Shown here: positions 36,220-58,612 of the stretch, piece by piece | Numbering within the stretch: the first letter of the stretch is position 1 | Layout of the letters: each line of letters begins with the position of its first letter | Assembly (NCBI RefSeq): GCF_009389715.1 | Contig: NC_052409.1 | Span: 7,551,605 to 7,615,604 of the forward strand | DNA: 64,000 nt | Source of the DNA: Phoenix dactylifera | Lineage: Eukaryota > Streptophyta > Magnoliopsida > Arecales > Arecaceae | Direction of reading: 5' to 3' | The notes under the pieces: model-generated | The model's input: only the letters and a program-made list of their open reading frames with translations | Database searches by the model: none | Told to the model about the DNA's origin: nothing | Translations under genes and position numbers: made by a program

Positions 36220-36785
36220 TATATCATGCATCTTATCTAAGGTGATATCATTTATTCTTTTGGTAAAAAGTTGATATCATTTATTTAGAATACATTTTGA
36301 GCATTATTAGTTGACTAAGTGTCAAATAAATGCTTTGTCACACACATTAAAGCATACTTTTGATGAGTTATATGATATAAGTGATGTGCACAAGCAGTGC
36401 GTTAACTTTTGGATTGCACTTGTTATGCTTGGGTAACATTTTTAAATTATTGAACTACAGAAATTGTTGATCTGTTTTGCAGCATGCTTTCATCTCACTG
36501 TAGCCTCATTTGTACATTCATTTGAACAAAATTGCTCATTTTCATATCTTTTGCACGATCTTGGATTTTCAGGAGTTCCATGGACTGAACATGAGCATAG
36601 AATGTTTTTACTTGGACTGCAAAAGTGTGGCAAAGGTGATTGGCGGGGGATATCTCGTGACTTTGTAGTAACAAGGACATCTACTCAAGTTGCCAGCCAT
36701 GCTCAAAAATATTTTATCCGTCAAACCAATGCCAGTAGAAGAAAAAGGAGATCCAGCCTTTTTGATATGGTTCCCGATGAAGTTA

Positions 36786-36846
<61 letters not shown>

Positions 36847-37578
36847 TTATTGTGGAAAAGTAATACGATATTTAGTCCTGTTTTCCTTTTCTTTGTGAAC
36901 AAAGTATGGCCAGCACTCTATTTGTATGCTTTACCATATATGTGTGTGTGCTTTCTCATATGTGTGTGTATACGTGTATGTATGTACGTGCATGTACATT
37001 ATGTATGCACACGTATGTGCGCACATATACCAGCCTGTGTATGAGTTCTTTTGCTGGCTTAATTAATGTTATGTGTTGTTATATCTCAGCCTGCCGATGG
37101 TCAGCTTTATCCCATGGTCTCCCATGAACCAGAGGCACAAAGCAACAACCCACTGCCAGCACCTCCAGCTCAGGATGAGGAATGGGAGTCCATGGATTCC
37201 AATTCCAATGATGGAGAGGGACCTGTTCCGAAGCCAGAAAGTTTGCCATGCAGTTATCCAGTTTTCTTTCCTACCTATTTCTCGCCAGTCTTTCCATTTC
37301 CCTTTCCATTTTGGCCAGGTTATGGAGCAGTAGATACTGTAGAAAAGAGGCATGAAATTGTTAAGCCAACAGCGATGTATTCAAAGGTTCCCATCAATGT
37401 GGATGAGCTTGTGGGCATGTCACAACTGAGCCTAGGAGAATCCAGTGGTGAGACAGGGTCTTCATCCTTGTCATTAAAACTGGTCGGCAGGTCAGATAGA
37501 CAATCTGCTTTTCATGCTAAAGCCCCCACAAATGGTTCGATGGTGGATTCAAATACCAGTCCAATCCATGCAGTCTAG
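28264..37578 (+). CDS. KUA1/MYBH-like single-MYB (SHAQKYF) transcription factor, three exons
   Basis: Exons 28264-28552, 36573-36781 and 37090-37578 join to 328 codons plus stop, with GT/AG introns in phase 1 and phase 0. The order matches the KUA1/MYBH group: CCHC zinc knuckle C18-C21-H26-C31, repression motif KLFGVRL (37-43), one MYB repeat (about 97-150) with SHAQKYF at 138-144, basic RRKRR at 152-156, Pro/Phe-rich FPTYFSP, the conserved PINVDEL segment, and an EAR-type LSLKL at 293-297. Known members are nuclear repressors that bind TATCCA-type sites and affect cell expansion, senescence and sugar or hormone responses; I infer the same here. Start 28264 has a good context (GCCATGG), but the in-frame ATG at 28303 (MTRRCSHC) is where relatives usually begin. 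Intron 1 is about 8 kb and contains a LINE and a SINE. Confidence 0.93.
31345..32902 (+). mobile_element. 5'-truncated LINE in intron 1 (zinc-binding RVT and RNase H part of ORF2)
   Basis: Same strand as the host gene. It reads [17 protein letters not shown] (31515-31718), then the zf-RVT region [20 protein letters not shown] with [18 protein letters not shown] (31719-32051), a linker, and an RNase H domain (32445-32879) with [11 protein letters not shown] and [17 protein letters not shown], ending in a stop. A short trailer and an A9 tail (about 32894-32902) follow. Stops or frame changes separate the blocks. I could not identify a convincing target duplication; the left end is approximate. 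Confidence 0.85.
32931..33090 (+). mobile_element. Au-type SINE
   Basis: The tRNA-derived head begins AGAGGTGGGCCTTGGTGCAA, has an A-box-like TGGTGCAACGATA and a B-box GGTTCGAAG (32985-32993), continues with the diagnostic TGGAAACAACCTAGCTGCAT, and ends GCCTCGTGCACAGG with a T-rich tail, the signature of the plant Au SINE family. Flanks are similar T-rich stretches (about 32911-32928 and 33089-33105), an imperfect target duplication. It sits just after the LINE tail. Confidence 0.85.
36179..36222. repeat. (TA)n microsatellite in MYB intron 1
   Basis: About 17 uninterrupted TA units with an imperfect continuation, 350 bp upstream of exon 2. Confidence 0.9.
36788..36846. repeat. (TC)n(TG)n compound microsatellite directly after the exon 2 donor
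   Basis: About 20 TC units followed by about nine TG units, starting six bases after the GT of the exon 2 splice donor at 36782 (GTTAGT). Length changes here would not alter the coding sequence but lie very close to the donor. Confidence 0.9.
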
Positions 37579-37659: not shown

Positions 37660-39235
37660 CTCAACTTATTTTCGAATTCTTAATAGTGACTGCAGTCTGT
37701 ATTAGATTTTTAAGGAATGTCTTCTCAGCCTCTGTATGGTCATGTCCCTGATCCTATTATGCAAGATGGTTTAACTTATGTTTTGAGTTCTCTCTCTTTC
37801 CCCCCTTCTGCTCCATCGGTGGGATTAGATCTTATATTATTTGGCTTGCTTCTCTTTCAAATTCTATAACTATCATAAAAATGAAATAACGCATGTACCT
37901 CTGCTAAATTTATCATCTCATGAACTGATATTAATGTTAATTATCTCTGTAGTTAACTGAGCTTAACATTATCTTGATTTGCTAACTTTGTCCGCAGGCA
38001 GTTCTGAACGCTATTATCTGAGTGGTGGTTGAGCTTATGTCATCCTATATTCTTTCTTATCTTATATAAGCTTCTTCGGTTCCTTCAGGTTTTAGTCTGG
38101 CCGAACCAAGGTTCTAGGGAAGGGCACTACATAATATGTGCATATCTTGCCAGGTGTTCATCTAGGTTCAGTTTTTCAGGCCTTGTTCAATGTTCTGCAG
38201 GGGGCTTTTTCAATGCTCTGCTGGCTTTGATGCCTGTTGCATGTTAGCAATAGCTGAGCTCTCCCCTGTATAAAATGCTGCTGCTATTTCTTTTTTTTTC
38301 TGCCATTCATTCTAACCTTCTATTTGAGTTTCAACCTAGTGATTGCGAGGTTGGATCAACATTGGACATTAATAATAGCACCCGATTTTTTGCATGTTCT
38401 TCAGATTATCAACCTGACAACTATGTTTCGCAATTTTATGGCCTTTGGTAATGATTTTTTTTCTCCCATGTTGGCTTGGTTTATATACATATATACACAC
38501 ATGCAAACTTATGTATTTGTATGTATATGTACGTATGTATATATGTATATATATGTGTATATATGTGTATGTGTGTGTGTGTATATATGTGTGTGTATAT
38601 ATATATATATGTATATATAAGTGTATGTGTGTGTGTATATCCATGTATGTATATGTATGTATGTATAATACACAACATGCATTCAAAGAATGGTAACTTA
38701 AGAACACATTATGAATAAAAACAATTTGGTGTTCGCACCATGGTGAAGCAATGTGCATCCTAAATATTGTAAAACTGCTAAATAGACCGCGCATATCCAT
38801 TTGACAAGGACAAGTTGAGATTCATCCAGAGAATATGTAAGCCATTCTTAAGTTGATGCAAATAATAGTTTAATTGCAGCAGAAATTATGATTGGTTCAG
38901 TTGCAAGTCCATTGAGTTCGGATTAGATTAATGTACATGAAATAGCAACCGTGGGACATATGCACATTTCTTGAATGTGGTCAAGCTATTGCCTGATTAC
39001 TAAATATTCAGCTCTGTTTTAGTTTTGAACTGCTAAATTGGAAAACTTATATTTACCTGGTGACATGAATTCTAGATTATAAATAAGAAAGTAATCTAAG
39101 TCTAAAATGTGATACATAATTCTGCATTAATACCTACCTTAAAAAAGGACAAAGGGAGAACCCAAGTCCTCAAGATGGCAAAGCATGAACAGAGGCAAAT
39201 AACAAGCCTACTTCAACCACATTGCTCTGCCCCTA
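37660..39235. other. Downstream of the MYB gene; no gene supported
   Basis: Presumed 3' untranslated and intergenic sequence, including the microsatellite region at 38480-38670. No other feature is recognisable. Confidence 0.4.
38480..38670. repeat. (TATG/TGTA)n microsatellite region
   Basis: Imperfect alternating TA, TG and TATG units over about 190 bp. Tyr/Val/Cys-rich and His/Ile/Thr-rich frames on the two strands arise only from this repeat. Confidence 0.85.
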
Positions 39236-39239
39236 CTGA

Positions 39240-39500
39240 TCTATTCTCTAAATGAAATATCCCACTTTAAACCCCAGGCAACCCAAAACCAACATCAGAT
39301 GCACACATCAAAACCATGACCATGTATGTCTAAAGCTCGACTCACTCCACCATCGTCTCTGAGCTCCGTCGACATTACTGCATCGATCATTACATGTGCA
39401 ACAAGCATTCGAACTCCTCCAATGACAAATAACGCATGTCGACCAAATCTATTAATCATCATCATTGCCATGATGATGGCACCAGTGATTTTGGATAAGT
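39240..39500 (-). pseudogene. Monosaccharide (STP-type) transporter fragment
   Basis: Minus-strand translation near 39490-39330 gives INRFGRHALFVIGGVRML followed by a hydrophobic stretch and a DDGGVS-like loop. This matches the part of sugar transporter proteins of the MFS/STP family where a V-DRxGRRxLF-xGG-QM motif precedes a transmembrane helix and a short loop. A further shifted block near 39250 resembles the AWSWGPLGW motif (here CWFWVAWGLKW). Only this fragment is visible, with frame loss, so it is debris and not a gene. Confidence 0.5.
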
Positions 39501-39862
39501 ATCAACAGAATAATCCAGCATCTGCCTCCCTAAGCACTTCAAGTGCCACTGTATTTTATGTCAAAAAGGCCTACAAGAAGCTTAGGTCGCAAATGAGAAT
39601 TATATCCAGACCTCTCAATTCTCATACTCACCAAAAGAGGCTTGCATCATGTAAGTAACAAAAGACACGCAAATCACAGACAATGTGATTATGTAACACA
39701 AAAATTTTTCTGACTAGTAGAAAACAGAAGGACTGAGCTCAACTCACAGACAAACTCAGTTGCCTTATTTAAACACAAGGCTAACACTGACATGGCATAA
39801 GGCATGCTTTAATTTGGAATAAGCTTCTCTCCATAGCGACTTCACAGAGGTGCAGACCTGCT

Positions 39863-40420
39863 CTAATCCTTGCGGATGATGAAACGAAGACCTTACCCCT
39901 TAAGCATGTACTCAAAGGCCTTGTCGATTTCAGAGAAAGGAACACTGTGGATGATAAACTTCTCCAATTCTAGCTCCTGCACCATTAAAGAATGCAAATA
40001 TACTTGGTCATTTTTACTTAGCAGAGTAAAGCAATAGAACATTAAGCAAGACAAGTTAGAATAATTTGTTTACCTTGTTCATATACTTCTCAACAACTGA
40101 AGGAAGGTTAGAGCACGGTTTTGCAGTTCCCAAAACGGGTTCCCTTATGAGTCATCTCGTTGAGTTCATAGGGTGGGTTTTGAACTCGGTTTTCTTTGTG
40201 AGGCACCCCAACCCTGAGGCAGTCAACATTTTCAGATTGCTACCTTATACGAGCCTAGATTAATGGATGGAGTCCAAAATGCAAGCTTGTAAAGGGAGAA
40301 AGAAGTTACATCACAAACACATTTAAATGAAGATATCATGGCATTTACGTAGCCAGTGCATGCAGCGCTTCCATCAACTCCACCATCAGTCATCTCAGCA
40401 ATCACCTGATAAATGTTCAT
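39863..40420 (-). pseudogene. Alcohol dehydrogenase (class P ADH1-like) 3' fragment with introns kept
   Basis: Three exon remnants on the minus strand. 40420 to about 40320: [12 protein letters not shown]...[15 protein letters not shown]. About 40245-40074: VGVPHKENRVQ...GTRFGNCK, with shifts, ending at a GT donor. 39976-39863: [20 protein letters not shown], then KAFEYMLKG, an in-frame TAA where the family has a glutamate (KGES/KGEG), then LRFIIRKD and the normal stop. These are the last exons of the zinc-dependent ADH family, in order and separated by introns, so the origin is a DNA-level duplicate or a decayed gene. The catalytic domain is absent. Confidence 0.8.
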
Positions 40421-40429
40421 TCTTTACAG

Positions 40430-41770
40430 CCTTGAGAACTGCATCAGGAAAGTTTGGCACGGGCTGGAGCCAACCTATGTGAGCATGGAAAGGATCAGCT
40501 TGGTGCCCGACATACGAAAATGGTATACAAATTCTATTTTAGATTATAGTTAATTATAGTATCTTGTCTAAAATGTGTTAAAGCTATACATTTTTGCACT
40601 AATTTGATGCATTAGATTAATACTAGCAAAATTTAAAATTTTGGTTTATAAACTTTTTAGTGGTGTGGATCATGATAGACAGTATAGATTGTCAATTACA
40701 CATGCATATACATATATACATACATACATACATATCTAAATATATAGCATGCACATAAATTCATAGACAATCTTGGGCAACTTACATACATGCATGCATG
40801 CATATATTTACATATGATTTAGGAAAAGTCCTCGTCTAGAACATTTTGAATGCAAGCAGTCTATGATTTTGAAAAGTATTTTTAAACTATAAAATAAGTT
40901 GTGATGAACATGTGGACCATAATCCAAATCTATCTTCTTGGCTTTTCTTTTCATGTAAGATTTAAAATTTACCAATGAAATACAAATGAACTCCTGTTCA
41001 TTAGTAGTAGAGAAGTCAAAATGCGTAACATTTTCTTTACTCATATGGCGACTTGCAAGCCAAATATTGTCGACATATCATACAATTGATGTTTAATTTA
41101 TACTAATCAAAGGTAGATCCTGGGGTACATGCAAAAAACACTATTTATCGACAAAAGGTTGCTATTACTAAAATATCACGATTTTTTAATCGTTAAAAAT
41201 ATGTAATAAAAAATTGATTTTTGGATCATATGAAGCAATTTTCCTCTCGTAAGCTCTCGAACGTCCGGTGGGTTTTATGAACTTCTTCCAGATGCATTAC
41301 TCGGACCAATTGCATGAATAAAGTCTCATACTAAAGTTTTACCATGTCCAGTTGATAGAAAAGCGCTATTGGTTTCAAACAAGCAAGGGTCAGTAATTAA
41401 TATCCATGGTTCTTCACCAAAAAATATATTAAAGGGCTTTAATGCCTCATATCTTTGGGTTTTGTCTACACGAGTACAACCAAGGAAGGTCGTGATGCAT
41501 TTAAACGCATGAGAAGGCCATAGTAACAGCCCTTGAAATCTCAGGCGCACATATATTAACGAATGAATCCTGTCAGCTGTTCCCAATTACCCTTATTATT
41601 TAATCAGATAAAGTAGCAACGTATTTGGTGCATAAACTGTTTTAGTTTTTTATAAGATAGGCTTCCATTGATTATGAGGTGATTTTATTTTGTTTGATTA
41701 TGTAATAAGGGTTAAATTGTTGTCTGAATGAATATTTAAGGATCTCATAATTAATTTATGAATATATGAC
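40430..41770. other. Intergenic, no supported gene
   Basis: Holds imperfect (CATA)n tracts at about 40690-40815. A minus-strand reading near 40440-40510 gives the plausible peptide HIGWLQPVPNFPDAVLKA, which I cannot assign. Confidence 0.35.
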
Positions 41771-41951
41771 CCTACAGTAAAAGAGAGAAAGCCGACGCTA
41801 GAGAAAAGCGTCGGTAGGTTTTGCTCCCGCGCCAAATTTTACCGACGCTTTACGCACGCTTTTGAGAGCGTTAAGAGAAAACCTACCGGTGCTTAAAAGC
41901 GTCGGTAAAGACTAAACAAAGCTCCGGGATATATCCTTTCTTTTTGTAGTA
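41771..41951. mobile_element. CACTA-like miniature element with GACGCT inverted repeats
   Basis: The ends (CCTACAGTAAAAGAGAG and CTTTCTTTTTGTAGT) form an imperfect inverted repeat like the CACTACAAGAAAA ends of CACTA/EnSpm elements. The 180 bp interior carries four copies of CCGACGCT or its complement AGCGTCGG in alternating orientations, which could fold into a stem. The 3 bp target duplication is not clear, so the outer borders are approximate. Confidence 0.55.
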
Positions 41952-43012
41952 TGGTTAGTTTGGGCCTTATTATCTTAGCTATGTGGTATGGTGAGGATTG
42001 GTGTAGATCTGATTTGGTTAATAAATTCTATAATTGGTGGACCCATTAAATTACTAATTAGGCTACATTTTCACTCCATTCCTATATATATTTATCTCTA
42101 GAGAAATCCTAGGTACTAAAGTTTTTACATTCTGGTTAATTTCTAGTTCTTTGTTCATTTGGTAGCATAATCGCCTGACAAATGAGTTTTAATTTGTTAG
42201 TCTGCTGCAAAGTGATTGCATGCTGAACAGAGCCTTCAAAGTTAATTATATCCCCTACCATGCAACTCTGCCAACTCATGCACCGCAAAGTATTGTACTA
42301 GCATGAATAACTACCACATCATCTATTTTGGAGATGAATAGCTCTCATTTTATGACTTGTCATTGGAGATAGAGGAAAGTCGTGGAATAGAGTAATCTGT
42401 GGTGCAGGGTCATCTTTCAAAAGGCAACGGAGAAATTTATTCTACAGGCAAATTACCCATCGTAGTGAAACCTAAGGCAACTACCAAGAGTTGTGCTTGG
42501 AACTACCACTAGAAAGGTAATTATCGTTAGAGATAATTACTGGAAAAGATGGTTACTATTGGGAGAAACCATCAATAATACGGATCGGATACTAACATAT
42601 CCATATCCATGATGACTATAAACACGGATGCGCATGTTAGTCGGATGCAAAAATTTATATCCATATATATTTTAAACGGATACCGATAGAAATCGGATAC
42701 CAAACATGCAAATATAAATAAGGATGTAAATCGAATAATTAAACTTTATGACCATAGAATCAAAGATATTACTAAATGGATGATAAATCAAGTTAATAGT
42801 ATGTTAATATGATCATTTATTTGTTTTAAAAAAATATAAGTATCATATAAAATAATAAAGTTATAAATAGAACCTAATATTCGAAATGGATTGAATAATT
42901 ATCTATTTATATTTATATTTGAATAACGTTATAAATACACAAAAGGAGGATTCACTTTTCTGTAGATTTCTCTAGCCGAGGGGGCTTCGACGCCTCTTGA
43001 AGTATCTTAGTC
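41952..43012. other. Intergenic; possible decayed MITE near 42590-42900
   Basis: A stretch with repeated GGATACCGAT, ATCCATATCC and related motifs at 42590-42900 resembles the interior of some plant hAT-type MITEs, but no terminal repeats were found. Nothing else is recognised. Confidence 0.3.
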
Positions 43013-43595
43013 ATAGTTTATGGTTTCTTACAGTTCAACTTTTATCCTTAGCTTTGTTTAGTTGACGTGAGTTGATGAAGTCTCTTAGCCGTAGTTTATA
43101 GTTTCTCACAGTTCAACTTTTCATCCTTAGCTTTCTTTAGTTGACGTGACTTGATGAAGTCTCTTAGTCGTTGTTTATAGTTTCTCTTGCGAATGAATGA
43201 ATCATATATGGACGGTCTTCACAGATCGACCAACTGCATGCCCACCTCTTTTTGGCCGAACACTATCATGCCATTCGCAAGTCAGTCGCTGTGCACCCAA
43301 TGGATTTATTGACTGTTGATTACGACTGGGGCTGCACTATCCATGGCTTCCACCCTTCAGTCTGACCACAGATGGTTGGCAAAGATAAGTCGTCGGCCAA
43401 CAGCCCCGCGGCCAATCAGAGAGTAAATATTTTTTAAAATAATATTTTCTTGACTAATTTTTTTGGTGAGATATTGGCTTGTTACAAACGGCTCAAACTT
43501 AATTTCGATATTATATTCATATTTCTAACTACATCTAGATCTTCTACCCTACTTTGACAATTTACCAATTTTGATGTTTATATCTTTGATATGAT

Positions 43596-44175
43596 TAGGG
43601 GTGGCAAAATATGACCCGACCCGTCAACCCGACCCGTGTTCGACCCGCCATAAACAGGTTTGGGTTTGGCCTAAACAGGTTCGGGTCGTAAACAGGTCGA
43701 CCCGTTTAACCTGTTTATTAATTGGGTCGGATACAGGTTTTAGATGTCTGACCCGTTTAAACCGTTTAACCCGTTTAACTGTTGGGCAGGTTAAACAGGT
43801 CTAAACAGGTTAAACGGGTTAAACTGGTTAAACGGGTCTAAACAGGTTAAACGGGTCTAAACAGGTCTAAACAGGTCGGGTTGGGCAGGTTAAACAGGTT
43901 GGATTGGACAGATTAAACAGGTTTAAACAGGTTAAACGGGTCAGGTTGGGCAAACAGGTTAAACAGGTCGGGTCGGATTGGGTAAACAGGTTACCTGTTT
44001 ATTAAACAGGTTAAACGGGTCGGGTCGGGTTACCTGTTTAATAAACAGGTCAGGTTCAGGTTTGTAATTCCTGACCCGTTTAATAAACAGGTCGGGTTCA
44101 GATTTATAGTTTTCTGACCCGACCTGTATTTGACCCGACCTGTTTATGCCTGACCCGACCCGATTGCCACCCCTA
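43596..44175. mobile_element. hAT-type MITE with 8 bp target duplication
   Basis: 580 bp bounded by perfect 12 bp inverted ends TAGGGGTGGCAA / TTGCCACCCCTA and by the direct repeat GATATGAT (43588-43595 and 44176-44183). Copy B of the segmental duplication has a single GATATGAT at 55502-55509 and no insert, which proves the insertion. The interior is an array of AAACAGGTTAAACGGGTC-type units of about 10-18 bp and GACCCG motifs, in opposite orientation in the two halves. No coding capacity. Confidence 0.93.
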
Positions 44176-44295
44176 GATATGATCATATTATGCTCATTGG
44201 TACTTCTTATTATCCAAAATTACATCTAGAATAAAAATTTTCTATTTTCTATCTATTTGCAGCAAGTTTTAGCATAATTCAACGATCGCATGACA

Positions 44296-45035
44296 GTACA
44301 ACCTGAAAAACACTACACTCCCTCAGTAGCCTCTAGATATCGTCTAGAAGTAGATGATTTGTCTCCCTCAGCCCCTCCTGTAGAATTCGCTCAATCACCT
44401 CCGTTGAGTCTCCCTCAAGGATGATACTCCCAGCCTCTAACACACCCCTTGCATAAGAGATTTTCTCCCACGCGACCCTAAGTTTCGCCCTAGGAACTGA
44501 TATCTCAAAGGTACGCCGCCCCCCGCTGCAATCAACCTGGAATCGTGATCCTTGATCGCAAATGCAACTCCAGTGCAACCTACGTCATCGAGCAGACTAC
44601 TATCAAAGTTCACCTTTAAATGGCCAGAAAGTGGGGACTCCCAAACAGCAAGGACATACATGGGCGTTGTAGCAGCAGAGAGGGAGACCAAAATATCCTT
44701 AGCCATCCCAGATGAAACAGCCATAGCAGCCTCAGTGATTTCAGCGATCTAACGGATACCTCTATCCACCACTGATCTAAGGGGAGCCCTTCTATCCTCG
44801 AAGACCTTGTCGTTTATGTCTAATCAGATATGATAAGCCAGATAGGCACCAACAACACCCCATCTAGCAGCACTCAGTGACCGTATGACAGACCTCATAT
44901 GCCGAAGTAAATCCTCTGCAGACTCAATGAACCTTGGCAGGGGAAATGATGCCCGGTTCTAGATCTGTGCGGCTCGTGGGCACTCTAACAGAGCATGACC
45001 GACAGTCTCCACCACCTCCAAATAGTTCACACATG
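44296..45035 (-). pseudogene. LINE ORF2 C-terminal fragment (zf-RVT and RNase H), broken
   Basis: Minus-strand frames 44724-44437 and 44578-44333 carry the RNase H domain: SGHLKVNFDSSLLDD, AFAIKDHDSRLIAAGG, a shifted ISVPRAKLRVAWE block, and ILEGDSTEVIERIL. Upstream (44750-45035) is decayed zf-RVT sequence ending in a LECPRA-like block. At least one frameshift separates the RNase H halves, and both ends are missing. Copy B has about 90 bp of unrelated sequence in place of it (about 55628-55707). Confidence 0.8.
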
Positions 45036-45806
45036 ACGGGGACTTGTCTTCATCTATTAATATATTGTAAAATTATAATCTCAAGCTGATCCAACGATCA
45101 TGCCTAAAAGATGATCTACATTGTATCAAAAAGAAAGCTTTATGGTCCTCTGGGTCCATCAAATTTGTCTCCAATTCATAAACAAAACTAAGTTATATCA
45201 TGATAATGATATAGGTGCTTTTGGAAACAAAAATATGCACATAATTAATCTAAATCTTCTGTTATGCGTCTTTCCACATCCGATGAGATCTCTCTAATTA
45301 ATGCCCCAGATGTATAATTTCTCTTTGACAAACTTATTTCTCCTCTACTTCTTTCCTTTCTAACAACTTCATCCTCTCCAATCTTAATTTATCTCCCATT
45401 TTAAGTTTTATTTTATATCTTATTTATATTTGATATTATTTATTATTTATTTATTTTTACTATGATGCGAGCATGCCCAAAAAATCAAAGGTTTTCCGAT
45501 TTCGAGTTGAAGCCTAATCTTAAATATGCAAGCACGTACAGATGGTGTAGAACAACTCTTTTGCTAACTATTACATTGTCAAATAATCACTAAGTTTACG
45601 GAGGGAACCTCCATTAAAATATTACAACACCAAGAACAAATGGTTTTGTGTTTTCACTGGAAATGGTAGGAACGGTCGAACAAATCTAATTCTGCACATA
45701 TCCAACTTTCAGATTAAACTCTATCGATACGTGGACTCAACGAACAAATAAACCTCACACCGATTCGAGAGACCTCGCGCGAAGGTCTCGTCGTTACATG
45801 GGATGG

Positions 45807-47418
45807 CTAATAATGGATGAATATATTATTAATATTGGTATTGTTGTGGTAAGGATCGAAGGCGGGCTCCTCCGTCAAGCTCTCCATCTCCATCTGGAAC
45901 CTCTCCATGGCGGGTCCCGGCAGACACATGGGCACCAGGATGCCTTCCTCCCCCTTGTTCCTGTGCCAGGTGTAGAAGCTGGCCACACCGGGGACGGCCC
46001 CGACCCCAGCACTGGCGGGGCCGCCGTAGACCCCCTCCCCCCAGCCGAAATCCACCGCCTCGAAGCCGGCCCGGGTCACGTCCGACACGAGGTAGGTCCG
46101 AGCCATGGCGAAGTGCGGCCTCCCGCGGAGCACCATCAGGTCCGCCACCGACTGCATGTACTCGTCCGTGACGCTGGCCTTCGCCTTCCTCACCAGCTCC
46201 AGTGCGTACCCCAGCGGGCTGCGGCTCAGCCTGCCCGCCGCCGAAGAGGCCACCGGGAATGCGAGCGCGTTCCCGTAGTACCCGGACGGCAGGGGCGGGT
46301 TGCGCCGCCCGCGGGCGTTCACGACGAAGAGGACGCGGACCTCGTCGTCGGGGTCGTAACCGAGGGCGGCGGTGCGGCTCCGCCAGACGGACGCGGTGAT
46401 CAGATCGAACCTGGAGCTGGTGGAGCGCAGGTGCGGCGGCGCGTGCTTCCTCATCGCGGAGATCTCCTTGGGGCCGAAGAAGAAGGAGCGGTTCACCATG
46501 TCGGCCGGGGGGGAGGTCGTCAGCACGTCCGTGCCGGCCAAGCACTCGTACTCCGGGTGGGCGTGGGTGATCCGAGGGGGGCTGCGGGCGTTGAGCAGCT
46601 CTCTCTCCCACACCGGCGTCAAGGTAGGGGCAGCTGCACCGCGTGCCATCTCCCCCAGGCCTGTGAGGAACTGCACCACCCCCGGCGCGTCCACGAACGT
46701 GTGGTTGATCCGCAGACCGAAGATGAAGCCTCCGCATTTGAGTCGCGTCACCTGATCACGCATAATTAATTTCAGGAAGAGTAGCAGCGACTATTTAGAG
46801 CTCGCTCATTGGTTTCATCATCATGGAGGAACTCAACACCCTATCATTATCATTTAATTTGTAGTCATCTGCACACTTAACACTAATGTACATACTTATA
46901 TTACTTCTTGCATGAGCTTCCAGTGCGTTCAATCTTTTTATATCAACCTCGGCATGAGCTTCGAAGATTTAATCATGTACCTGAATAAAGAGCAAGGGGC
47001 GGTCGAGGATGCTTCCGAAGCTCTCCGTATCGTAGAGCAGCTCCTCTACGCAAGGAAAGGGTGGACTGGGTGCGTGGCCGAAGTCCTCGAGCCGGACGTC
47101 GGCGTCGGCCTCCACGAACACCACCCCTTCCCCGGTGCACTCCACCACGAGCTTCCTCCCGGGCCATTCCCGGAGCCGGCCAGCGATGGGATAGTAGTGC
47201 ACGAGGACCTCCCCAAGGGCCTCCTTTATGACCGTTGCCGGGTCCCGGCCCTCCTTGGAGGGATCGTTGCGGTAGAAATGGATGCCAGAGCTGTAGAACC
47301 TCAGGCCTTCCTGGTCGTCGATGTCCGAGAGGGGTTTGAACTCGTGCGGTGTGGACTTCGCCGGTGCAACGAGCACGGGCTCCCTCCGGCACACCGTGAA
47401 GCTCAGAGAGGATGCCAT
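45807..47418 (-). CDS. BAHD acyltransferase, alcohol acyl/benzoyltransferase type, copy A
   Basis: Exon 1 is 47418-46981 and exon 2 is 46751-45807, joined by a 229 bp GT/AG intron in phase 0, giving 460 residues, normal for the family. HTFVD (163-167) is the catalytic HxxxD motif and DFGWG (380-384) the structural motif; both are intact. The N-terminus (SLSFTVCRREPVLVAPA), YYPIAGRL and GYYGNA segments match the benzyl-alcohol O-benzoyltransferase/alcohol acyltransferase group, cytosolic enzymes that move an acyl group from CoA to an alcohol to make volatile esters. Substrate cannot be told from sequence. ATG 47418 begins the conserved MASSLSF start. A nearly identical gene lies at 56470-58081. 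Confidence 0.93.
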
Positions 47419-47529
47419 AACGGGGTTGCTACCTTAATTAGGAGGGGTTTGGGCTTAACTGCTGACGCTGAGAAGTTTGATTGCCTGGAGGTGGGAGGTG
47501 ATGCGTGCTCCGAATCTACTAACTGCTTG

Positions 47530-47537
47530 TATTTATG
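47530..47537 (-). promoter_or_regulatory. Candidate TATA box, BAHD copy A
   Basis: ATAAATAC on the minus strand, about 112 bp upstream of the ATG. The same motif and spacing occur in copy B at 58193-58200. Confidence 0.5.
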
Positions 47538-47842
47538 GAGAGGAATTGGCGTGGTCGGGTAGGTAGAGCCATGGCTATTTCGACTGTAATTTTGATACTA
47601 TGGCTTGGGCGTCTGCATGGAAGATACGCGCTAAGAGCACCACGTCAATGTGTTCTGATTGCTTTATTCTAGCAAATTATCGACGTCCGACTCGGTCGGG
47701 ATGCCGGACTTGCTTTTCTGACCCGACTGGATGGGAAAAAGATGGTCCACCCGCGTGCCCGACCTTTCGGCTTAGCCCGGTCATAACGGTTGGTAGTATT
47801 GGTCTCGTTACGTGAAACATGCCCACCGTTTTGAGGACATAA

Positions 47843-48146
47843 TGATAAAGCGTAGGGTGTAATTTAAATTTCAAATCCAAGCCGTTACCGGATCTTTTGC
47901 TTGAACGGGTAGATAGTTGCGTAGTTACAATCTTTGGCAGAAACTTCTGCCGAGATTTCATCCTTTTAGTTTTTTTTTTAAAAGCCTTGTAGACCAGTTT
48001 TTTCAATATAAATAGAGGAGGTGACTGCACTCTTATTTGGCTGAGTACCTTCGAGAGAAAAGTATTGCCATCATTCGTCTCTCTTCTCTTACTCTGTTTC
48101 TTCTCTTCCTCTATCAATCCAAGGTGCTGTGAATTCATTTCTAACA
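47843..48146 (+). mobile_element. Solo LTR with CATAA target duplication
   Basis: Fossil of an LTR retrotransposon: 304 bp starting TGATAAAGCG and ending TTCTAACA, with a TATA box (TATAAATAGAGG) about 140 bp before its end, flanked by CATAA (47838-47842 and 48147-48151). Copy B of the duplication has one CATAA and no insert (near 58500). A lone LTR is what remains after recombination between the two LTRs of an element; I could not assign it to Copia or gypsy. It lies about 425 bp upstream of the BAHD copy A start. Confidence 0.9.
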
Positions 48147-48258
48147 CATAAAAGACGCAAAAATTTTGAGAAGAATTTTCAGTAGGGTTTCGGACAATAA
48201 TTATTAGGAAATTTTAAGAAACTATTGTAATGACACTGATATCTGTCTACCTATCTAT

Positions 48259-48261
<3 letters not shown>

Positions 48262-48350
<89 letters not shown>
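48262..48350. repeat. (TA)n microsatellite
   Basis: About 44 TA units at the right border of segmental duplication copy A; the equivalent place in copy B has only TTTTTATACACGCGCG. Confidence 0.95.
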
Positions 48351-48354
<4 letters not shown>

Positions 48355-49500
48355 TACACCTATTAAATCCATCACACAACAAATTTCTATAAAATGATCA
48401 TCTCAATGTTTCACATCACTCCCTTTTGATCAAAATGTCCATGAATGCTGAGGACGGTGGGAGAGAATTCCGAGGGAACAGTTAGAATTCGGAGGTGGCC
48501 AACAAGACATTCAAATAGGTTAAAAGCAAAAGAGTTAATGTACCCAGCAAAGCTAATATTATATTAATAAAGTTATGTTACATGCATATTGTAGGTAAAT
48601 AAATTTTATTATATGATGGTATAATTTGTCCGTGATTACATTGTATGGAGATCATGTAATAATAGAGATTAATACAGAGAGATATGATACTCCACTTTTC
48701 TTGTAATCTAAAATAGTTCACAACCTAAATAAATATATATTGGGCATATATATTTATATTATGGTTGTCACATGTTATACTACTATATGTGATAGGATGA
48801 TGTGTTTCAATCATCAGAATAGAGATTCTTAGTAAATATGTGGGTATTTGTAAGATAACAAATACTAAACAAGACCAAATATTAGAACACTTTTGGACCA
48901 TAGAATCTGTGAGAATGAAGGAGTAGTTCTAGTCACATATTCATAATTTCTTAACGATCCAAGAATGCTACATAATCTCATGTGGAGTTTGTGTAGCTTT
49001 GATATTATTAACCGTTGATATCTAGTAAAAGATTATACATATACGGACATGTTGGGTTGCATAAATAAAATATGGAGATTTGCGAAGAGTCATGAACATC
49101 CAAAAAGAGAATTCATCATTCCTTAAGAAGGAAAGAATATTCAAGACTGTGTTCCTTAGAATTGAATTTGAAACCCAACGGGTACAATTTTAAGATATTG
49201 TCTAATTCAAATTAAATAAAAGAACACACATGTGAATTACTAATAGACAGTCTTGTGGTGGTTCCATATCAATTCAGTAGTTCATGTGGAATATTAGTTG
49301 GTGAAGAAAATTATGTGGAAATATAATGTGACAAGAGATACTCGCTACATGTTTTATTCTTTGGGTGAGATTGTAGTTTGCAAATAGGCATAATTGCAGT
49401 TGCCAAACCAAATTAGATTTTGGCTTACTAGAGAAAAGAATATCCCTAATGGATCCCACGCAACATGCTCATCCTCTTACTAACTGGCATCCAAAAGGTC
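48351..49500. other. AT-rich sequence, possibly the outer part of a Copia-like LTR
   Basis: No gene. The block leads without obvious break into the LTR end at 50138. A TGTTGGGTTGC at 49050 could be the start of the LTR, but there is no second complete LTR to test this. Confidence 0.3.
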
Positions 49501-49514
49501 GTAATATGAAGAGT

Positions 49515-49838
49515 CATATTATGAATAATCTCTTACTATTCATTAGATGAATGTTACTAAATTTGATTAATTTTTCATTCATTACAATGGAGTGAATATG
49601 GTAGACTAAACATTAGTATATGAAGAGACATGAATAAGAGAGGTTTCATTATAATGAATGCCATTGAATAAGATTTCTATTATGAATAGTATCTTACTAT
49701 TCATTAGATGAATGTTACTAAATTTGATTAATTTTTCATTCATTACAATGGAATGAATATGATAGACTAAATGCTAGCATATGAAGAGACATGAATAAGA
49801 GAGTTTTCATTATAATGAATGTCATTGAATGAGATTTC
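49515..49838. repeat. 161 bp tandem duplication
   Basis: Two adjacent units with period 161 bp (CTTACTATTCATTAGATGAA starts at 49532 and 49693), about 95% alike by eye. They lie inside the region upstream of the Copia-like LTR end. Confidence 0.85.
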
Positions 49839-51912
49839 AATATACTTCCTCTATTAGAAAAAAGAAGAGAGAGAGCAAGTAGAGATGATATACGAGAAAT
49901 TTTTCTCATGAATTAAAAGGGATAGCAAAAGTTGTAGAAGAGGCATTGCGTGTGAACTTAGGAGGACTTTGCATTGTGAAGTCTTTTGTGAGTAATATCA
50001 TCACTAAGGTATGTCCTATGATCACATAAATCCATGTACATCAAACAATGATCTAGACTCCACCAAATTCTCATATTATGAATATGGATAAAATAAAATT
50101 ATTTTGAGCAAGATTCAAAATTCTGCTGCAAACTATCAATGGTATCAGAACAAGGTTATTCGTGAATAATTTTTGAATTATTCGTTCGTTGATTTTTGTT
50201 GATATAATTAGATTAGACTCATTTATCATATGATATGTTTCTTTGAATGTTAAATTCATGCCTTGCTTTGTATATCTAATGTGATCTTATTTTATTTGAT
50301 TTAATGAGATTGTGATTTAGAAATTCTTATAGTTTATATGTATTTGGAATACATTTTTGACTTGTGTAGCATTGCAAAATATGATTTTAAGAATTACACA
50401 AGTTTGGAGTTTTTTTTTTTTTATGGTGATGGATTTGTCTATAGGATAAACTAAACATCTATATCTAATTGTATGACAATTATATGTCCCCTTATTTTAT
50501 TATATCAAGTATGGAGATCGAGATATAATCCTATGAAGATTTTCTCTAAAGGTCTTCCATTGTTGTTAAATAATTGTGATGATTTTAGAAATGAGTCGAT
50601 GCTAAAATGATAAGACTTATTTCAAAGAATCATTGTTACTATTTATTTTATTGGATAATAAATATGTCAGGGCTAGTGTAAGCTGCAACTAAAATGGGGT
50701 TGCTACCAATAGTAATATGATATATTTAGACAAGGAGTTTGTACTTGAACAATGGGAGTGTGACAATCTAAAATGATAGTGGTCAACTCTGATTGGAGGC
50801 CAAATTATAACATGAGTCCTTTAATTGTTATTGGTAGATAAGTAGTATCTACTTCTTGTAAGAGATTTATATATCCTAAAATGGGTTATTGAGTTTTCTG
50901 AATGAAGTTCATGTTACTCACAATAATATTTTATAAAAATATTTTATGCATATGAGGGAATTATTGTTGTAAGAAATAGTGAGTGCACCATTAACATTAA
51001 AAATAAAAATCCCAATTTTAATGGTTATATGCATGTATATGTTGTAGAGTTAATTTTTCTTTTATCTTATTGCATTGTGATGTAGATATCATGTCCAACT
51101 ATACTCCTTTAACAAAGATGTTGGATAACAATCGTTTGAATGGTTCAAACTATAGTGATTGGAAAAGAAATCTGAATATTGTACTTACTTCTGAAAAATT
51201 GAGTTATGTGTTGACTAATGATGTACTCAAAAAACCCGAAGATAATGCTTCCCAAGAAGCACTGGATGCTTATGAGTATTGAAAAGAATATGATTCTTTG
51301 GCAAAGTGTTACATTCTTGCTTCACTTGAAAATAAATTTCAAAAGCAGATTGAAACTTTGCCAACAGCTAAAGAAATGATGAAAAGCTTGAAAGAAATAT
51401 TTGGGCAGCAGAATCGTTCTACAAGGCAAAGTGCTATGAAGTCACTTATGTCTACCAAGATGCTGGAAGGAACACTAGTTCATGATCATGTCATGAAGAT
51501 GATAGTATACATTAATGAATTGGAATCCCTTGGTTCTGTTATGGACAATGAAACTAAGGTGGATGCCATTTTATCCTCACTATCTGAATCGTTCAATCAG
51601 TTTGTATTAAATTTCAATATGAATAATTTGGTGGTGAGTCTTCAAGAACTATGTAATATATTACAACGTGCGGAAGATTTGATGAAACAAAACAAACCAA
51701 TCGTTATGGTATATGAAAGAGGACTGTCCTCTAACCTAAGTCCAAACATAAGAAGAAAAGAGACCTTAAGAAAGTCCAAGATGAACGTAGGAAGCGAGCG
51801 AAGAAGGACAAATCAAATGATGCTTACCATCATTGTGGTAAATATGGTCATTGGAAGAGAAATTGTTTCCAAGACCTGGCTTTTGATATTGCATGATTTT
51901 AGAACTGAATTA

Positions 51913-52651
51913 TGAAACAGAGAACTAATCGAACTTCGACTTTGCTATATTAAGGACCCCACCAATGGGGGCAGATAAGTTGGCAATTGACTGTCCTGAA
52001 TGACTCACCGCAAGAAGATTAGTCGGTGTTGATGACCCTGCTACAGGTAACATGTGGTCATAGTTCAGGATCGACACGATGAATTGAATATTGGAAAGAA
52101 TCCGAATTCGTGAAAAGAATTCTAAGAATTTAAGAAAAGAGTTGATTTCTATCTTAGTACTGCATATGCATTTAATTTCTGCATATTATTACTTGATTTA
52201 TCTAGCTAGAGTATTCATTACTTACTTGGCTGTTAGCTCATTATATAATTTTTTCTTATTTTACAGATTCTGAGAATTAGCCTATCGGGGTTTCAAATTG
52301 GAAGAGCGACTAAAAGGATAGTGGCACAAACTATCTTAGATTGAGATTTGTTTAAGTTGAACTGTTGTCTTGGATAATTATTATGATTGTTAGGCATTGC
52401 AAGGTTTTGTTATTTAAAGAACTAAGTTTTACATGTTAGTATTTTATCGTTTCACTGCGTATTTAGAATTGTGAGACTTTATAACTTGAGTTAGTTAATC
52501 AAATAAGGTAGCATAATATCGATTTAATTATTTCGCTGCATATTTGTGATATCACGTTGAGATGCCTTGCATGCTCGTTGGAAAAGCTCCCTATGGGTGT
52601 GCGGTGGTTGCCGCGACCTCGGGCCCGCGATTTCGGGTCGGGGGCGTGACA
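51913..52651 (+). mobile_element. LTR of a gypsy-type element, inside the Copia-like element
   Basis: The end GGTCGGGGGCGTGACA (52651) preceded by GGTGTGCGGTGGTTGCCGCG and TTGAGATGCCTTGCATGC is the characteristic end of a widespread plant gypsy LTR type (seen in reverse as TGTCACGCCCCCGACC). The left border is approximate and no internal region is attached, so it is a solo or isolated LTR. Confidence 0.55.
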
Positions 52652-52880
52652 CCCTCCCTCATACCAGCCAGAAAATCTTGGACTGGGAGTCTCGGAGAAC
52701 ACTTCCCCTAAGCAAATCGAAATCCCCTTGGACCCCTTTACTCCCCAGTGGCCAGTACTGCTTCCCCCTCCCTCATCGCTAGAAGATCTTGGACTGGGAG
52801 TCTGGGAGAACACTTCCCCCAACCCCAAACAAGTCGAAAATCGAAATCCCCTTGGACCCCTTCAAGCCTGCTCGTGTCCT
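52652..52880. repeat. 113 bp tandem duplication, GC-rich
   Basis: CTTGGACTGGGAGTCT at about 52677 and 52790 marks two units sharing GGAGAACACTTCCCC and AATCGAAATCCCCTTGGACC. The second unit carries a short extra AACCCCAAA-like stretch. It directly follows the gypsy LTR end. Confidence 0.8.
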
Positions 52881-53143
52881 GCTTCAGGTGCTTGCCCCTC
52901 TCCACTTGATCTTTTTTTTTTCTTTGCAAATGTTAAAACATTTTCAATTCAGAGTACTCTTAAATCTTAATTTTTACTAGTTTAGTAGATCATATTACTC
53001 TGCTTCAATTTGAAATTTTTATTTTTCAAACCAAATTTCATTACTATTTGTTAAGTTGCCTCTTTCCCCTTTGTGGAATAACAAAGTGATCTATTCAAGT
53101 CTCACGCTTTCAGATGTTCTCATCACCTAATTGATTCTTCAAA

Positions 53144-54081
53144 TCTCTAAGTTTCTCATCACCTTCATCTATAACTCGCTGCACAAAAAAATAAACATGT
53201 CAGGATTGACATTTTATCTGAATATGCAAAGATTACAGTCTGGTTAGATTAATAAATAGGTGAAGAAATATTATGGAAGCTCTCAGTCTGGGCGACTTCT
53301 ATCTGTACAAATGACACTCATATCTGTACAAATGACACTCATATACTGTTTGAGCGACTTCTAAAATCTAAAACTACTGTCCATGTATCTAGTATCTGCA
53401 TAACTCTGCATGCAGTGAGTGATCTTGCTTTCCTTTCCAAAGACTTCAGAGTTCAGAATGTAGTTGTATTCTGTGATTATTATCAGTTGCATGCAGTGAG
53501 TGATATTGTTTTAGCCTTCTGTGCTTAGTCACATAGTCAGTTGCCTCTGTCAAGTCAATGTCCATCTACGCCAATGTCATGCCTGTTTTGACTGTTCTTA
53601 TTTGTGCTTCGCATATCATTTAATTCACTATATCAGTCTTTTGTAAAATTAGTAGCACCTATTAAACAGTTGGACATATTCAAGCAGATAACTGTGGAAT
53701 CAAGAACCATTTTTCGGCTAAACAATTTGTTACCTTTTTTTGGTTAGAATTGTCTTAAGCATCAGTTAAAAATTGTTTTGTCTCAAGCAGTGGATTTTTT
53801 TCTTTATTATTGTTCTTATTATAAGAAGTTGTTGTTTCATCCATCGTCCATACCTTACATCAGCAGACTTGAAAAACCAACCTATCAACTGGGAAGTCAT
53901 TGTCGACGTCCTTATTTAATTCAGACTATTAGCCCTCTAAGTTTCTCATCATCTTCATTTATAACTTGCTGCACAAAAAAATAAACATGTCAAGATTGAC
54001 ATTTTATCTGAATATGCAAAGATTACCGTCCGGTTAGATTAATAAATAGGTGAAGAAATATTATGGAAGCTCTCAGTCTGG
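53144..54081. repeat. Pair of 147 bp direct repeats 791 bp apart
   Basis: 53144-53291 and 53935-54081 are about 95% identical by eye (both begin CTCTAAGTTTCTCATCA and end AAGCTCTCAGTCTGG). The intervening 640 bp has no recognised gene. This could be a minor LTR pair or a local duplication; no primer site follows the first copy. A 21 bp tandem repeat (ATCTGTACAAATGACACTCAT) occurs at about 53300-53342. Confidence 0.7.
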
Positions 54082-54368
54082 TTTCATGACTTATTAATTT
54101 TTATTATTATTATTTTTTAAAGAAAAAGACTTTCTTTAGTGGGTTCGCCTTAGGTCTTTGAATACATTGGGCCGCCCCTGCGTGTGAACTTAGGAGGACT
54201 TTACATTTATGAAGTCTTTTGTGAGTAATATCATCACTAAGATATGTCCTATGACATGAATCCATGTATATGAAATAATGATCTAGACTCCACCAAATTT
54301 TCATATTATGAATATGAATAAAATAAAATTATTTTGAATAAAATTTGAAATTCCGCTGCAAACTATCA

Positions 54369-54867
54369 AAAAAGGCGGACGTTCCCTCCCTGCAGGGGAA
54401 GCTCCTCCTCCTCTCTACTGTAAGGATGCCCTCCACCACATCCTCGGTGATGCCATCTCCAATTCTATCCAATCACCATCGCCAGCCTATGCGCGTCGAG
54501 TCTTCCTGAATCCCATTACCCTTACTTTGGAGTCTGTGCTCAAGCTCATCTTTCCGAATCCCATCACCAAATCAAGCGTAAGATTTTTAGGATTTGTGCT
54601 TTTCTGCCGGCGAGATTTTAGAGAAGGGTACTGTTGATTGAAGGGTTCGCCAGAGAATAGGTGATCACGGGGTAGGAATGGACAAGAAGAGAGAAAGGGT
54701 TTTGCAGCATTGGGGGAGGGTCGGGAGGTAGAAGATCTGATTGTACTTCTTGCTGGAACAAAATATGAAAGAACCCAAAAAGAAAAGAACTCCGATCAAA
54801 TAAATAATATACCAAGGGCATTTTCGTTCTATAATCACTTCGTGCTGCGATGTGATAATCATGTGAG
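54369..54867. other. Short unassigned stretch before duplication copy B
   Basis: CT-rich sequence with no clear coding potential and no recognised repeat. Confidence 0.4.
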
Positions 54868-56469
54868 TTGATGATTATAGTTTCTTACGGTTCAACTTTT
54901 CATCCATAGCTTTCTTTAGTTGACGTGAGTTGATGAAGTCTTGTGGCCGTGGTTTATAGTTTCTCACAGTTCAACTTTTCATCCTTAGCTATCTTTAGTT
55001 GACGTGACTTGATGAAGTCTCTTAGTCGTAGTTTATAGTTTCTCTTGCGAATGAATGAATCATGGACGGTCTTCACGGATCGACCAACTAAACGCCCACT
55101 TCTTATTTGCCAAACACTACCATGCCATTCGCAAGTCAGTCGCTGTTCCCCCAATGGATTTATTGACTGTTGATTACGACTGGGGTTGCTCCATCCATAG
55201 CTTCCATCCTTCAGTCTGGCCACAGTTGGTGGCAAAGATTAGTCCTCAGCTTATTGGAATTAAAATGCCGTTTTGACCAAAAAAAAAACAGAAAAAGAGA
55301 GAGATAAGTCCTCGGCCGGCAGCCCCGCAGCCAATCAGAGTGTAAACATTTTTTTAAATAATGTTTTCTTGGCTAACCTTTATGGTGAGATACTGACTTG
55401 TTACAATGGTTCCAAACTTTATTTCGATATTCATATTTCTAACTACATCTAGATCTTCTACCCTACTTTGACAATTTACCAATTTTGATGTTTACATCTT
55501 TGATATGATCATATTATGCTCAAGGGTACTTCTTATTATCCAACATCACATTTAGAATAAAGAGTTTTATCATTATTTCCTATCCATTTGCAGCAAGTTG
55601 TAGTATGATTCAACAATCGCATGACATTATTGTTAGTAATTAGTATTGTAAGTTAAATATTCTCTCAGATAAAATGCTAAAAAAATTGTCGTACGCGTAC
55701 CCTCACTTGTCTTCATCCATTAATATATTGTAAAATTATAATCTCAAGCTGATCCAACCGTCATGCCTAAAAGATGATCTACATTGTATCAAAAAAAGAG
55801 CTTTATGGTCCTCTGGGTCCATCAAATTTGTCTTTGATTCATAAACAAAACTAAGTTATATCATGATAATGATATAGGTGCTTTTGGAAACAAAAATATG
55901 CACATAATTAATCTAAATCTTCTGTTATGCATCTTTCCACATCCGATGAGATCTCTCTAATTAATGCCCCAGATGTATAATTTCTCTTTGACAAACTTAT
56001 TTCTCCTCGACTTCTTTCCTTTCTAACAACTTCATCCTCTCCAATCTTAATTTATCTCCCATTTTAAGTTTTATTTTATATTTTATTTATATTTGATATT
56101 ATTTATTATTTATTTATTTTTACTATGATGCGAGCATGCCCAAAAAATCAAAGGTTTTCCGATTTCGAGTTGAAGCCTAATCTTAAATATGCAAGCACGT
56201 ACAGATGGTGTAGAACAACTCTTTTGCTAACTATTACCTTGTCAAATAATCACTAAGTTTACGGAGGGAACCTCCATTAAAATATTACAACACCAAGAAC
56301 AAATGGTTTTGTGTTTTCACTGGAAATGGTAGGAACGGTCGAACAAATCTAATTCTGCACATATCCAACTTTCAGATTAAACTCTATCGATACGTGGACT
56401 CAACGAACAAATAAACCTCACACCGATTCGAGAGACCTCGCGCGAAGGTCTCGTCGTTACATGGGATGG

Positions 56470-58081
56470 CTAATAATGGATGAATATATTATTAATATTG
56501 GTATTGTTGTGGTAAGGATCGAAGGCGGGCTCCTCCGTCAAGCTCTCCATCTCCATCTGGAACCTCTCCATGGCGGGTCCCGGCAGACACATGGGCACCA
56601 GGATGCCTTCCTCCCCCTTGTTCCTGTGCCAGGTGTAGAAGCTGGCCACACCGGGGACGGCCCCGACCCCAGCACTGGCGGGGCCGCCGTAGACCCCCTC
56701 CCCCCAGCCGAAATCCACCGCCTCGAAGCCGGCCCGGGTCACGTCCGACACGAGGTAGGTCCGAGCCATGGCGAAGTGCGGCCTCCCGCGGAGCACCATC
56801 AGGTCCGCCACCGACTGCATGTACTCGTCCGTGACGCTGGCCTTCGCCTTCCTCACCAGCTCCAGTGCGTACCCCAGCGGGCTCCGGCTCAGCCTGCCCG
56901 CCGCCGAAGAGGCCACCGGGAATGCGAGCGCGTTCCCGTAGTACCCGGACGGCAGGGGCGGGTTGCGCCGCCCGCGGGCGTTCACGACGAAGAGGACGCG
57001 GACCTCGTCGTCGGGGTCGTAACCGAGGGCGGCGGTGCGGCTCCGCCAGACGGACGCGGTGATCAGATCGAACCTGGAGCTGGTGGAGCGCAGGTGCGGC
57101 GGCGCGTGCTTCCTCATCGCGGAGATCTCCTTGGGGCCGAAGAAGAAGGAGCGGTTCACCATGTCGGCCGGGGGGGAGGTCGTCAGCACGTCCGTGCCGG
57201 CCAAGCACTCGTACTCCGGGTGGGCGTGGGTGATCCGAGGGGGGCTGCGGGCGTTGAGCAGCTCTCTCTCCCACACCGGCGTCAAGGTAGGGGCAGCTGC
57301 ACCGCGTGCCATCTCCCCCAGGCCTGTGAGGAACTGCACCACCCCCGGCGCGTCCACGAACGTGTGGTTGATCCGCAGACCGAAGATGAAGCCTCCGCAT
57401 TTGAGTCGCGTCACCTGATCACGCATAATTAATTTCAGGAAGAGTAGCAGCGACTATTTAGAGCTCGCTCATTGGTTTCATCATCATGGAGGAACTCAAC
57501 ACCCTATCATTATCATTTAATTTGTAGTCATCTGCACACTTAACACTAATGTACATACTTATATTACTTCTTGCATGAGCTTCCAGTGCGTTCAATCTTT
57601 TTATATCAACCTCGGCATGAGCTTCGAAGATTTAATCATGTACCTGAATAAAGAGCAAGGGGCGGTCGAGGATGCTTCCGAAGCTCTCCGTATCGTAGAG
57701 CAGCTCCTCTACGCAAGGAAAGGGTGGACTGGGTGCATGGCCGAAGTCCTCGAGCCGGACGTCGGCGTCGGCCTCCACGAACACCACCCCTTCCCCGGTG
57801 CACTCCACCACGAGCTTCCTCCCGGGCCATTCCCGGAGCCGGCCAGCGATGGGATAGTAGTGCACGAGGACCTCCCCAAGGGCCTCCTTTATGACCGTTG
57901 CCGGGTCCCGGCCCTCCTTGGAGGGATCGTTGCGGTAGAAATGGATGCCAGAGCTGTAGAACCTCAGGCCTTCCTGGTCATCGATGTCCGAGAGGGGTTT
58001 GAACTCGTGCGGTGTGGACTTCGCCGGTGCAACGAGCACGGGCTCCCTCCGGCACACCGTGAAGCTCAGAGAGGATGCCAT
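56470..58081 (-). CDS. BAHD acyltransferase, alcohol acyl/benzoyltransferase type, copy B
   Basis: Exon 1 is 58081-57644 and exon 2 is 57414-56470, intron 229 bp. Offset from copy A is exactly 10663 bp throughout, so there are no indels in the gene. The encoded 460-residue protein is the same as copy A; I find three coding differences, all silent (two in exon 1, one in exon 2). HxxxD (163-167) and DFGWG (380-384) are intact, so both copies should be functional. Upstream sequence and TATA box are also almost identical for about 400 bp; copy A then has a solo LTR that this copy lacks, which could change expression of one copy. Role as for copy A: CoA-dependent acyl transfer to an alcohol in the cytosol. 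Confidence 0.93.
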
Positions 58082-58192
58082 AACGGGGTTGCTACCTTAA
58101 TTAGGAGGGGTTTGGGCTTAACTGCTGACGCTGAGAAGTTTGATTGCCTGGAGGTGGGAGGTGATGCGTGCTCCGAATCTACTAACTGCTTG

Positions 58193-58200
58193 TATTTATG
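58193..58200 (-). promoter_or_regulatory. Candidate TATA box, BAHD copy B
   Basis: ATAAATAC on the minus strand, about 112 bp upstream of the ATG, same as in copy A. Confidence 0.5.
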
Positions 58201-58612
58201 GAGAGGAATTGGCGTGGTCGGGTAGGTAGAGCCATGGCTATTTCGACTGTAATTTTGACACCATGGCTTGGGCGTCTGCATGGAAGATACGCGCTAAGAG
58301 CACCACGTCAATGTGTTCTGATTGCTTTATTCTAGCAAATTATCGACGTCCGACTCGGTCGGGATGCCGGACTTGCTTTTCTGACCCGACTGGATGGGAA
58401 AAAGATGGTCCACCCGCGTGCCCGACCTTTCGGCTTAGCCCGGTCATAACGGTTGGTAGTATTGGTCCCGTTACGTGAAACATGCCCGCGGTTTTGAAGA
58501 CATAAAAGATGCTGAGAAGAATTTTCAGTAGGGTTTCGGACAATAATTATTAAGAAATTTTAAGAAACTATTGTAATGACACTGAAATCTCCCTACCTAT
58601 CTATCTTTTTAT

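Follow-up and report, generated by a model that had tools for sequence, protein, structure and literature searches.

Two BAHD acyltransferase genes of Phoenix dactylifera lie within a local duplication whose outer parts have diverged strongly, and the genes themselves are almost indistinguishable. The locus raises the question of whether their near-identity reflects constraint on the genes, a renewed duplication of the gene segment, an artefact of the assembly, or sequence exchange between the two copies. We analyzed 64,000 nucleotides of contig NC_052409.1, and the whole of this stretch is referred to as the window. The window looks plant nuclear, containing a two-exon BAHD gene, beta-amylase ORFs, a MYB-domain ORF, and LINE and LTR-retroelement remnants. 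A preliminary description had ascribed the pattern to gene conversion, or to strong recent exchange, covering the whole gene. Our results support this reading: the low-divergence plateau is sharp, and noncoding and synonymous sites within it are about as low.

Structure of the Duplication

By self-comparison and blockwise alignment, we identified one direct duplication, whose copies A and B occupy 43013-48267 and 54868-58613, respectively. Outside the right ends of the copies, 48262-53262 gave no match to 58600-63600, and the comparison of 38013-43013 with 49868-54868 on the left gave a single 67-bp match of 70%. As the neighboring 5-kb stretches are otherwise unmatched, the homology ends at 43013 and 48267 in copy A and at 54868 and 58613 in copy B. 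Within these limits, an ungapped blastn match joins 45042-47842 to 55705-58505. The outer blocks contain three, four, one, and one gap openings, and the block 45042-47842 is free of gaps, with divergent positions at both of its edges:

43013-44299: outer left homology of copy A, divergent, interrupted by a hAT-like insert; aligned blockwise with 54868-55630
54868-55630: outer left homology of copy B, divergent; from the blockwise alignment
45042-45173: left edge within the gap-free block, divergent, 8/132 differences
47805-47842: right edge within the gap-free block, divergent, 4/38 differences
48147-48267: outer right homology of copy A, divergent; 6/107 aligned columns differ from 58507-58613 of copy B
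58507-58613: outer right homology of copy B, divergent; from the blockwise alignment

The outer left homology differs in 63 of 691 aligned columns (29/359, 18/208, and 16/124 in its blocks). Each copy opens with a tandem repeat of two ~80-bp units (43013-43186 and 54868-55044) that are ~90% alike within a copy; between the copies, unit 2 is closer than unit 1 (2 vs. 9 differences per 100 in the MAFFT alignment). Using tblastn with an E limit of 10, we found neither a further copy nor a remnant of the BAHD gene in the 64-kb window: the two copies were the sole hits below E 1, and five others were short and weak (E 1.0-8.7).

The two copies carry different insertions. Three inserts had been described before, and all three are found in copy A; copy B has, in addition, a short one of its own:

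43596-44175: hAT-like nonautonomous insert, copy A only; terminal sequences TAGGGGTGGCAA, target duplication of 8 bp (GATATGAT)
44300-45041, minus strand: LINE-like RNase H remnant, copy A only; 59% DNA identity to 31970-32631
47843-48146: solo-LTR-like insert of 304 bp, copy A only; ends TG...CA, target duplication of 5 bp (CATAA)
55231-55295: ~65-bp insert, copy B only; poly-A stretch, imperfect target repeat by eye, exact ends ambiguous

Copy B presents the empty site of the hAT-like insert, with GATATGAT in a single copy, and a single CATAA at the site of the solo-LTR-like insert. We take 43596-44175 to belong to the hAT class from the hallmarks of that class, and 47843-48146 to be a solo LTR from its termini and the corresponding hallmarks. 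The segment 44300-45041 is likewise presumed LINE-like from class hallmarks: the sequence that it resembles, 31970-32631, is part of a region whose ORF at 32430-32879 matches PF13456 (RVT_3), and two ORFs of the remnant itself gave no match in Pfam. Opposite this remnant, copy B has 74 bp (55631-55704) with no blastn match to copy A. The differing inserts indicate that the flanks of A and B evolved independently after the duplication.

The Acyltransferase Gene Pair

Each copy contains one gene on the minus strand, interrupted by a single intron:

45807-47418, minus strand: BAHD acyltransferase gene, copy A; exon 1 47418-46981, exon 2 46751-45807 with the stop; 460 aa
46980-46752, minus strand: intron of copy A, GT-AG, 229 bp
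56470-58081, minus strand: BAHD acyltransferase gene, copy B; exon 1 58081-57644, exon 2 57414-56470 with the stop
57643-57415, minus strand: intron of copy B, GT-AG, 229 bp

The two genes have the same orientation and are separated by ~9 kb. Both reading frames are intact and encode identical proteins of 460 aa; the preliminary description had given the proteins as the same with three silent differences, and we count exactly three (GAC/GAT, CAC/CAT, and CGC/CGG). Positions 46221, 47074, and 47317 are the sites of these silent differences. The match to Pfam PF02458 is full length (E 2.8e-82, residues 15-437 against profile positions 9-433 of 434). The protein has HTFVD at residue 163 and DFGWG at residue 380, which we take to be the HxxxD and DFGWG motifs of the BAHD family. 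Among 32 solved relatives, the putative acyltransferase is closest by sequence match to PDB 9uod chain A, a BEBT-like acyltransferase (E 2.9e-140, residues 7-441), followed by two chains named BAHD acyltransferase. Judging from these similarities, the encoded enzyme is likely an alcohol or benzyl-type O-acyltransferase. A search of a plasmid collection gave no near DNA match, and an IMG/VR scan with the exon-2 ORF gave six pattern matches, none of them a relative.

Extent of the Near-Identical Tract

Difference counts were taken from the blockwise alignment of the two copies in this one assembly, leaving out copy-specific inserts and gapped columns, which gave 3,600 gap-free columns with 90 differences in all. 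In this alignment the central block has one gap opening beyond 47842 and ends 3 bp inside the solo-LTR-like insert. A global MAFFT alignment misaligned the solo-LTR-like insert against the right flank of copy B and the LINE-like remnant against the 74 bp of copy B, and its counts per 100 positions were used just for viewing the plateau and for comparing the ~80-bp repeats. Maximum likelihood (ML) placement of two breakpoints defined the following tract:

45174-47804: low-divergence tract of copy A, ML breakpoints; partner 55837-58467
55837-58467: low-divergence tract of copy B; partner 45174-47804, at a constant offset of 10663

Within the tract, the copies differ at 9 of 2,631 bp (0.34%) with no indels. 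The collinear flanks differ in 81 of 969 aligned columns (71/823 on the left and 10/146 on the right), and the near-identical tract is bordered on both sides by homologous but more divergent sequence. The two-breakpoint model was favored over even divergence with a likelihood ratio (LR) of 164.5, a value reached by none of 200 permutations (largest, 19.7) with sites treated as independent. The breakpoints are narrowly placed, at 45174-45198 and 47781-47825 within two lnL units with the other one fixed. The longest identical run, 852 bp, was reached in 0 of 10,000 shuffles, the shuffled maximum being 518. The transposon insertions of copy A lie 38 and 132 bp outside the tract edges.

These measurements agree in most respects with the values estimated by eye in the preliminary description. 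The plateau, predicted at about 45200-47820 and well under 1% through the gene region, was found at 45174-47804 with the divergence given above. For the outer left part, a range of 10-15% had been proposed, and 43200-44299 differs at 52 of 505 columns (10.3%); the ~4% suggested near 45040-45200 compares with 8/159 (5.0%) at 45042-45200, or 8/132 (6.1%) if counted to 45173. On the right, ~7% had been given, and 48147-48262 differs at 5/102 (4.9%) plus an 8-bp gap. The gene and its upstream region had been stated to be covered, and this holds; the gene being on the minus strand, the tract covers the 386 bp preceding the ATG and also the 633 bp following the stop.

Neither the tract nor its flanks are uniform in detail. 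The first 402 bp of the tract contain four of its nine differences (P 0.036, with the cut picked after the positions had been seen), and given this uneven spread there may have been more than one event. Divergence in the flanks varies as well, with a variance/mean of 1.5 over 19 blocks of 50. Spanning the hAT-like insert, a stretch of 100 aligned columns within 43502-44186 contains one difference and may represent chance or an older small exchange.

Constraint, Duplication, Artefact, or Exchange

Mutation can be slower in genic DNA than in methylated flanks, and the tract is centered on an intact gene, as expected if a low local mutation rate, or constraint by selection, had kept the copies alike without exchange. 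Divergence is, however, low at unconstrained sites too. Noncoding positions differ at 6 of 1,248 sites in the tract and at 81 of 969 outside, a ~17-fold contrast (Fisher P 2.3e-23), the flanks being noncoding as far as seen. By part, the tract has 2/386 differences upstream, 4/633 downstream, 0/229 in the intron, and 3/1,383 in coding sequence, and synonymous differences amount to 3 of ~338 sites (0.9%). As divergence in the intron, in the flanking noncoding DNA, and at synonymous sites is at about the level of the whole tract, selection on the coding sequence is not the explanation. Selection alone was rejected on the noncoding contrast, and we give constraint or a low mutation rate hardly any chance of accounting for the pattern. 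The intron, present and identical in both copies, argues against a spliced RNA or cDNA template, and RNA-mediated copying was also rejected.

Among tandem plant genes, unequal exchange is a common route of change, and two successive crossovers in an array could produce the same pattern as conversion. A single event would leave one breakpoint and a shared spacer, whereas here the identity ends on both sides, with two breakpoints and divergent sequence beyond each, and the 5-kb neighbors are not shared apart from the 67-bp match of 70%; a single unequal crossover was rejected on these grounds. A freshly inserted gene segment is not expected to lie collinear within older homology that continues past both of its ends, as the tract does, and a fresh re-duplication was rejected as well. 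The divergent edges of the gap-free block indicate that the older homology runs past both ends of the tract, so that exchange at two points within DNA that was homologous beforehand is needed; they suggest that the tract was exchanged between sequences already homologous, not inserted anew. We consider it very improbable that unequal crossing-over or re-duplication of the gene segment took the place of conversion. Somewhat less remote, though still improbable, is an assembly or polishing artefact, in which reads cross-mapped or collapsed over the gene and one sequence was written twice. Cross-mapping would be easiest exactly in a near-identical tract, and the nine residual differences are possibly its leftovers. 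Against this, copy-specific differences persist up to the tract edges in a gap-free alignment, copies A and B carry different inserts and have different outer neighbors, and, in our judgment, sequence truly 8% apart is not readily homogenized by polishing. With these alternatives weighed, we regard it as very probable that interlocus gene conversion, or a two-sided exchange equivalent to it, recently produced the tract within an older local duplication.

Sequence Context in the Window

The spacer between the copies, 48262-54868, contains a copia-type gag (PF14223) at 51283-51915, two pairs of repeats (49947-50139 and 54179-54369, 90%; 53145-53291 and 53935-54081, 96%), and a 161-bp tandem repeat of two units at 49517-49838. 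It may be transposon filling that parted a once tighter tandem pair. Just past copy B, 4 of the 10 ORFs scanned, in order on the minus strand at 59537-62398, match beta-amylase (glycosyl hydrolase family 14, PF01373). An ORF with a MYB domain (PF00249) and a SHAQKYF motif is located at 36446-36898, its 3' side entering a CT/GT simple repeat.

The left part of the window is rich in retroelements. A Ty3-like retroelement occupies 8051-18837, with reverse-transcriptase-like and chromodomain-like ORFs recognized by eye at 12673-15588. Its direct repeats, 9422-11613 and 15566-17768, are 93% identical, and as the first part of a gag-like ORF is found in both, the right copy exceeds an LTR; outside them lie 8051-9084 and 17769-18837, which are ~77-81% alike. 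This arrangement suggests that the element is nested or recombined. A LINE-like element on the minus strand spans 113-6791, with an endonuclease (PF03372) at 1433-2107 and, by eye, reverse-transcriptase-like and zinc-knuckle-like ORFs. ARAGORN called a tRNA-Pro at 5683-5766 within the LINE-like sequence and a tRNA-Ile at 44003-44083 inside the hAT-like insert. As these calls fall in transposon-like sequence and Rfam at gathering thresholds reported nothing in the window, tRNA included, both are probably false.

Discussion

We propose that a direct duplication arose from a plant chromosome segment of ~3.7 kb that contained a single BAHD acyltransferase gene, after which the flanks of A and B would have drifted to ~8-9% and gained different transposon insertions. 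Much later, a conversion, in which homology-directed repair used one copy as the template for the other, or an equivalent process, would have copied ~2.6 kb comprising the gene in full, the proximal promoter, and the 3' region, and the nine differences in the tract would have built up since. The exchange was presumably a conversion, as judged from its outcome; a different two-breakpoint exchange looks alike in one genome. Both copies are presumably expressed.

The exchange appears recent relative to the duplication. The Jukes-Cantor distance is 0.0886 outside and 0.0034 inside the tract, a ratio of ~26. At assumed substitution rates of 4.5e-9 to 1.3e-8 per site per year, the flanks would date to 3.4-9.8 My and the tract to 0.13-0.38 My, ages that are no better than the rates themselves.

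The conversion of duplicated plant genes is well established, and the present case is one more, long and well bounded. Conversion lengths among rice paralogues are given as 4-1,237 nt with a mean of 130, and intra-chromosomal conversion as declining with distance, with a peak below 5 kb and few cases beyond ~35 kb (PMC2277409). The locus shares with rice an intra-chromosomal conversion between duplicated genes, here ~9 kb apart, but the tract of ~2.6 kb includes an intron and both flanks and is about twice the longest rice tract reported in that survey (PMC2277409). A tract that runs into the flanks would be seen in part by a survey of gene sequences alone. As the tract exceeds the rice range, several overlapping events or an assembly effect are possible. 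Genes converted over their full length are reported among rice and sorghum paleologs, a likeness to the present pair; the paleologs are polyploidy pairs, whereas here the duplication is local and direct and the tract extends into noncoding flanks (PMC3924838).

At the Arabidopsis RPP8 tandem pair, exchange between copies is described as low, so that tandem position alone is no predictor of exchange (PMC6771003). The Capsicum AT3-1/AT3-2 locus is also a tandem BAHD pair in which recombination of paralogues was detected by sequence methods; there, recombination resulted in a chimeric gene with a frameshift, and one of the partners is a pseudogene, whereas here both genes are intact and the protein is identical (PMC6343889). 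Like duplicates under concerted evolution by gene conversion, the locus shows an older duplication in which exchange would have kept divergence low; dosage selection is proposed for some of those cases, and the present one, by comparison, is known from the sequence of one assembly (PMC3924837).

A more specific scenario is that one step of ~2.6 kb converted the whole gene, replacing promoter, exons, intron, and 3' region of one copy, was retained for a useful double dose of the acyltransferase, and was bounded by the flanking transposon insertions; we consider this combination unlikely. The recent two-sided exchange, most probably a conversion, has a consequence for the dating of the pair. Its gene-based age, from a synonymous divergence of 0.9%, would differ from the age of the duplication, from flanks at 8-9%, by about an order of magnitude, which calls for caution in the Ks dating of tandem duplicates. 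The locus is also a possible test case for whether gene-adjacent transposon insertions limit conversion.
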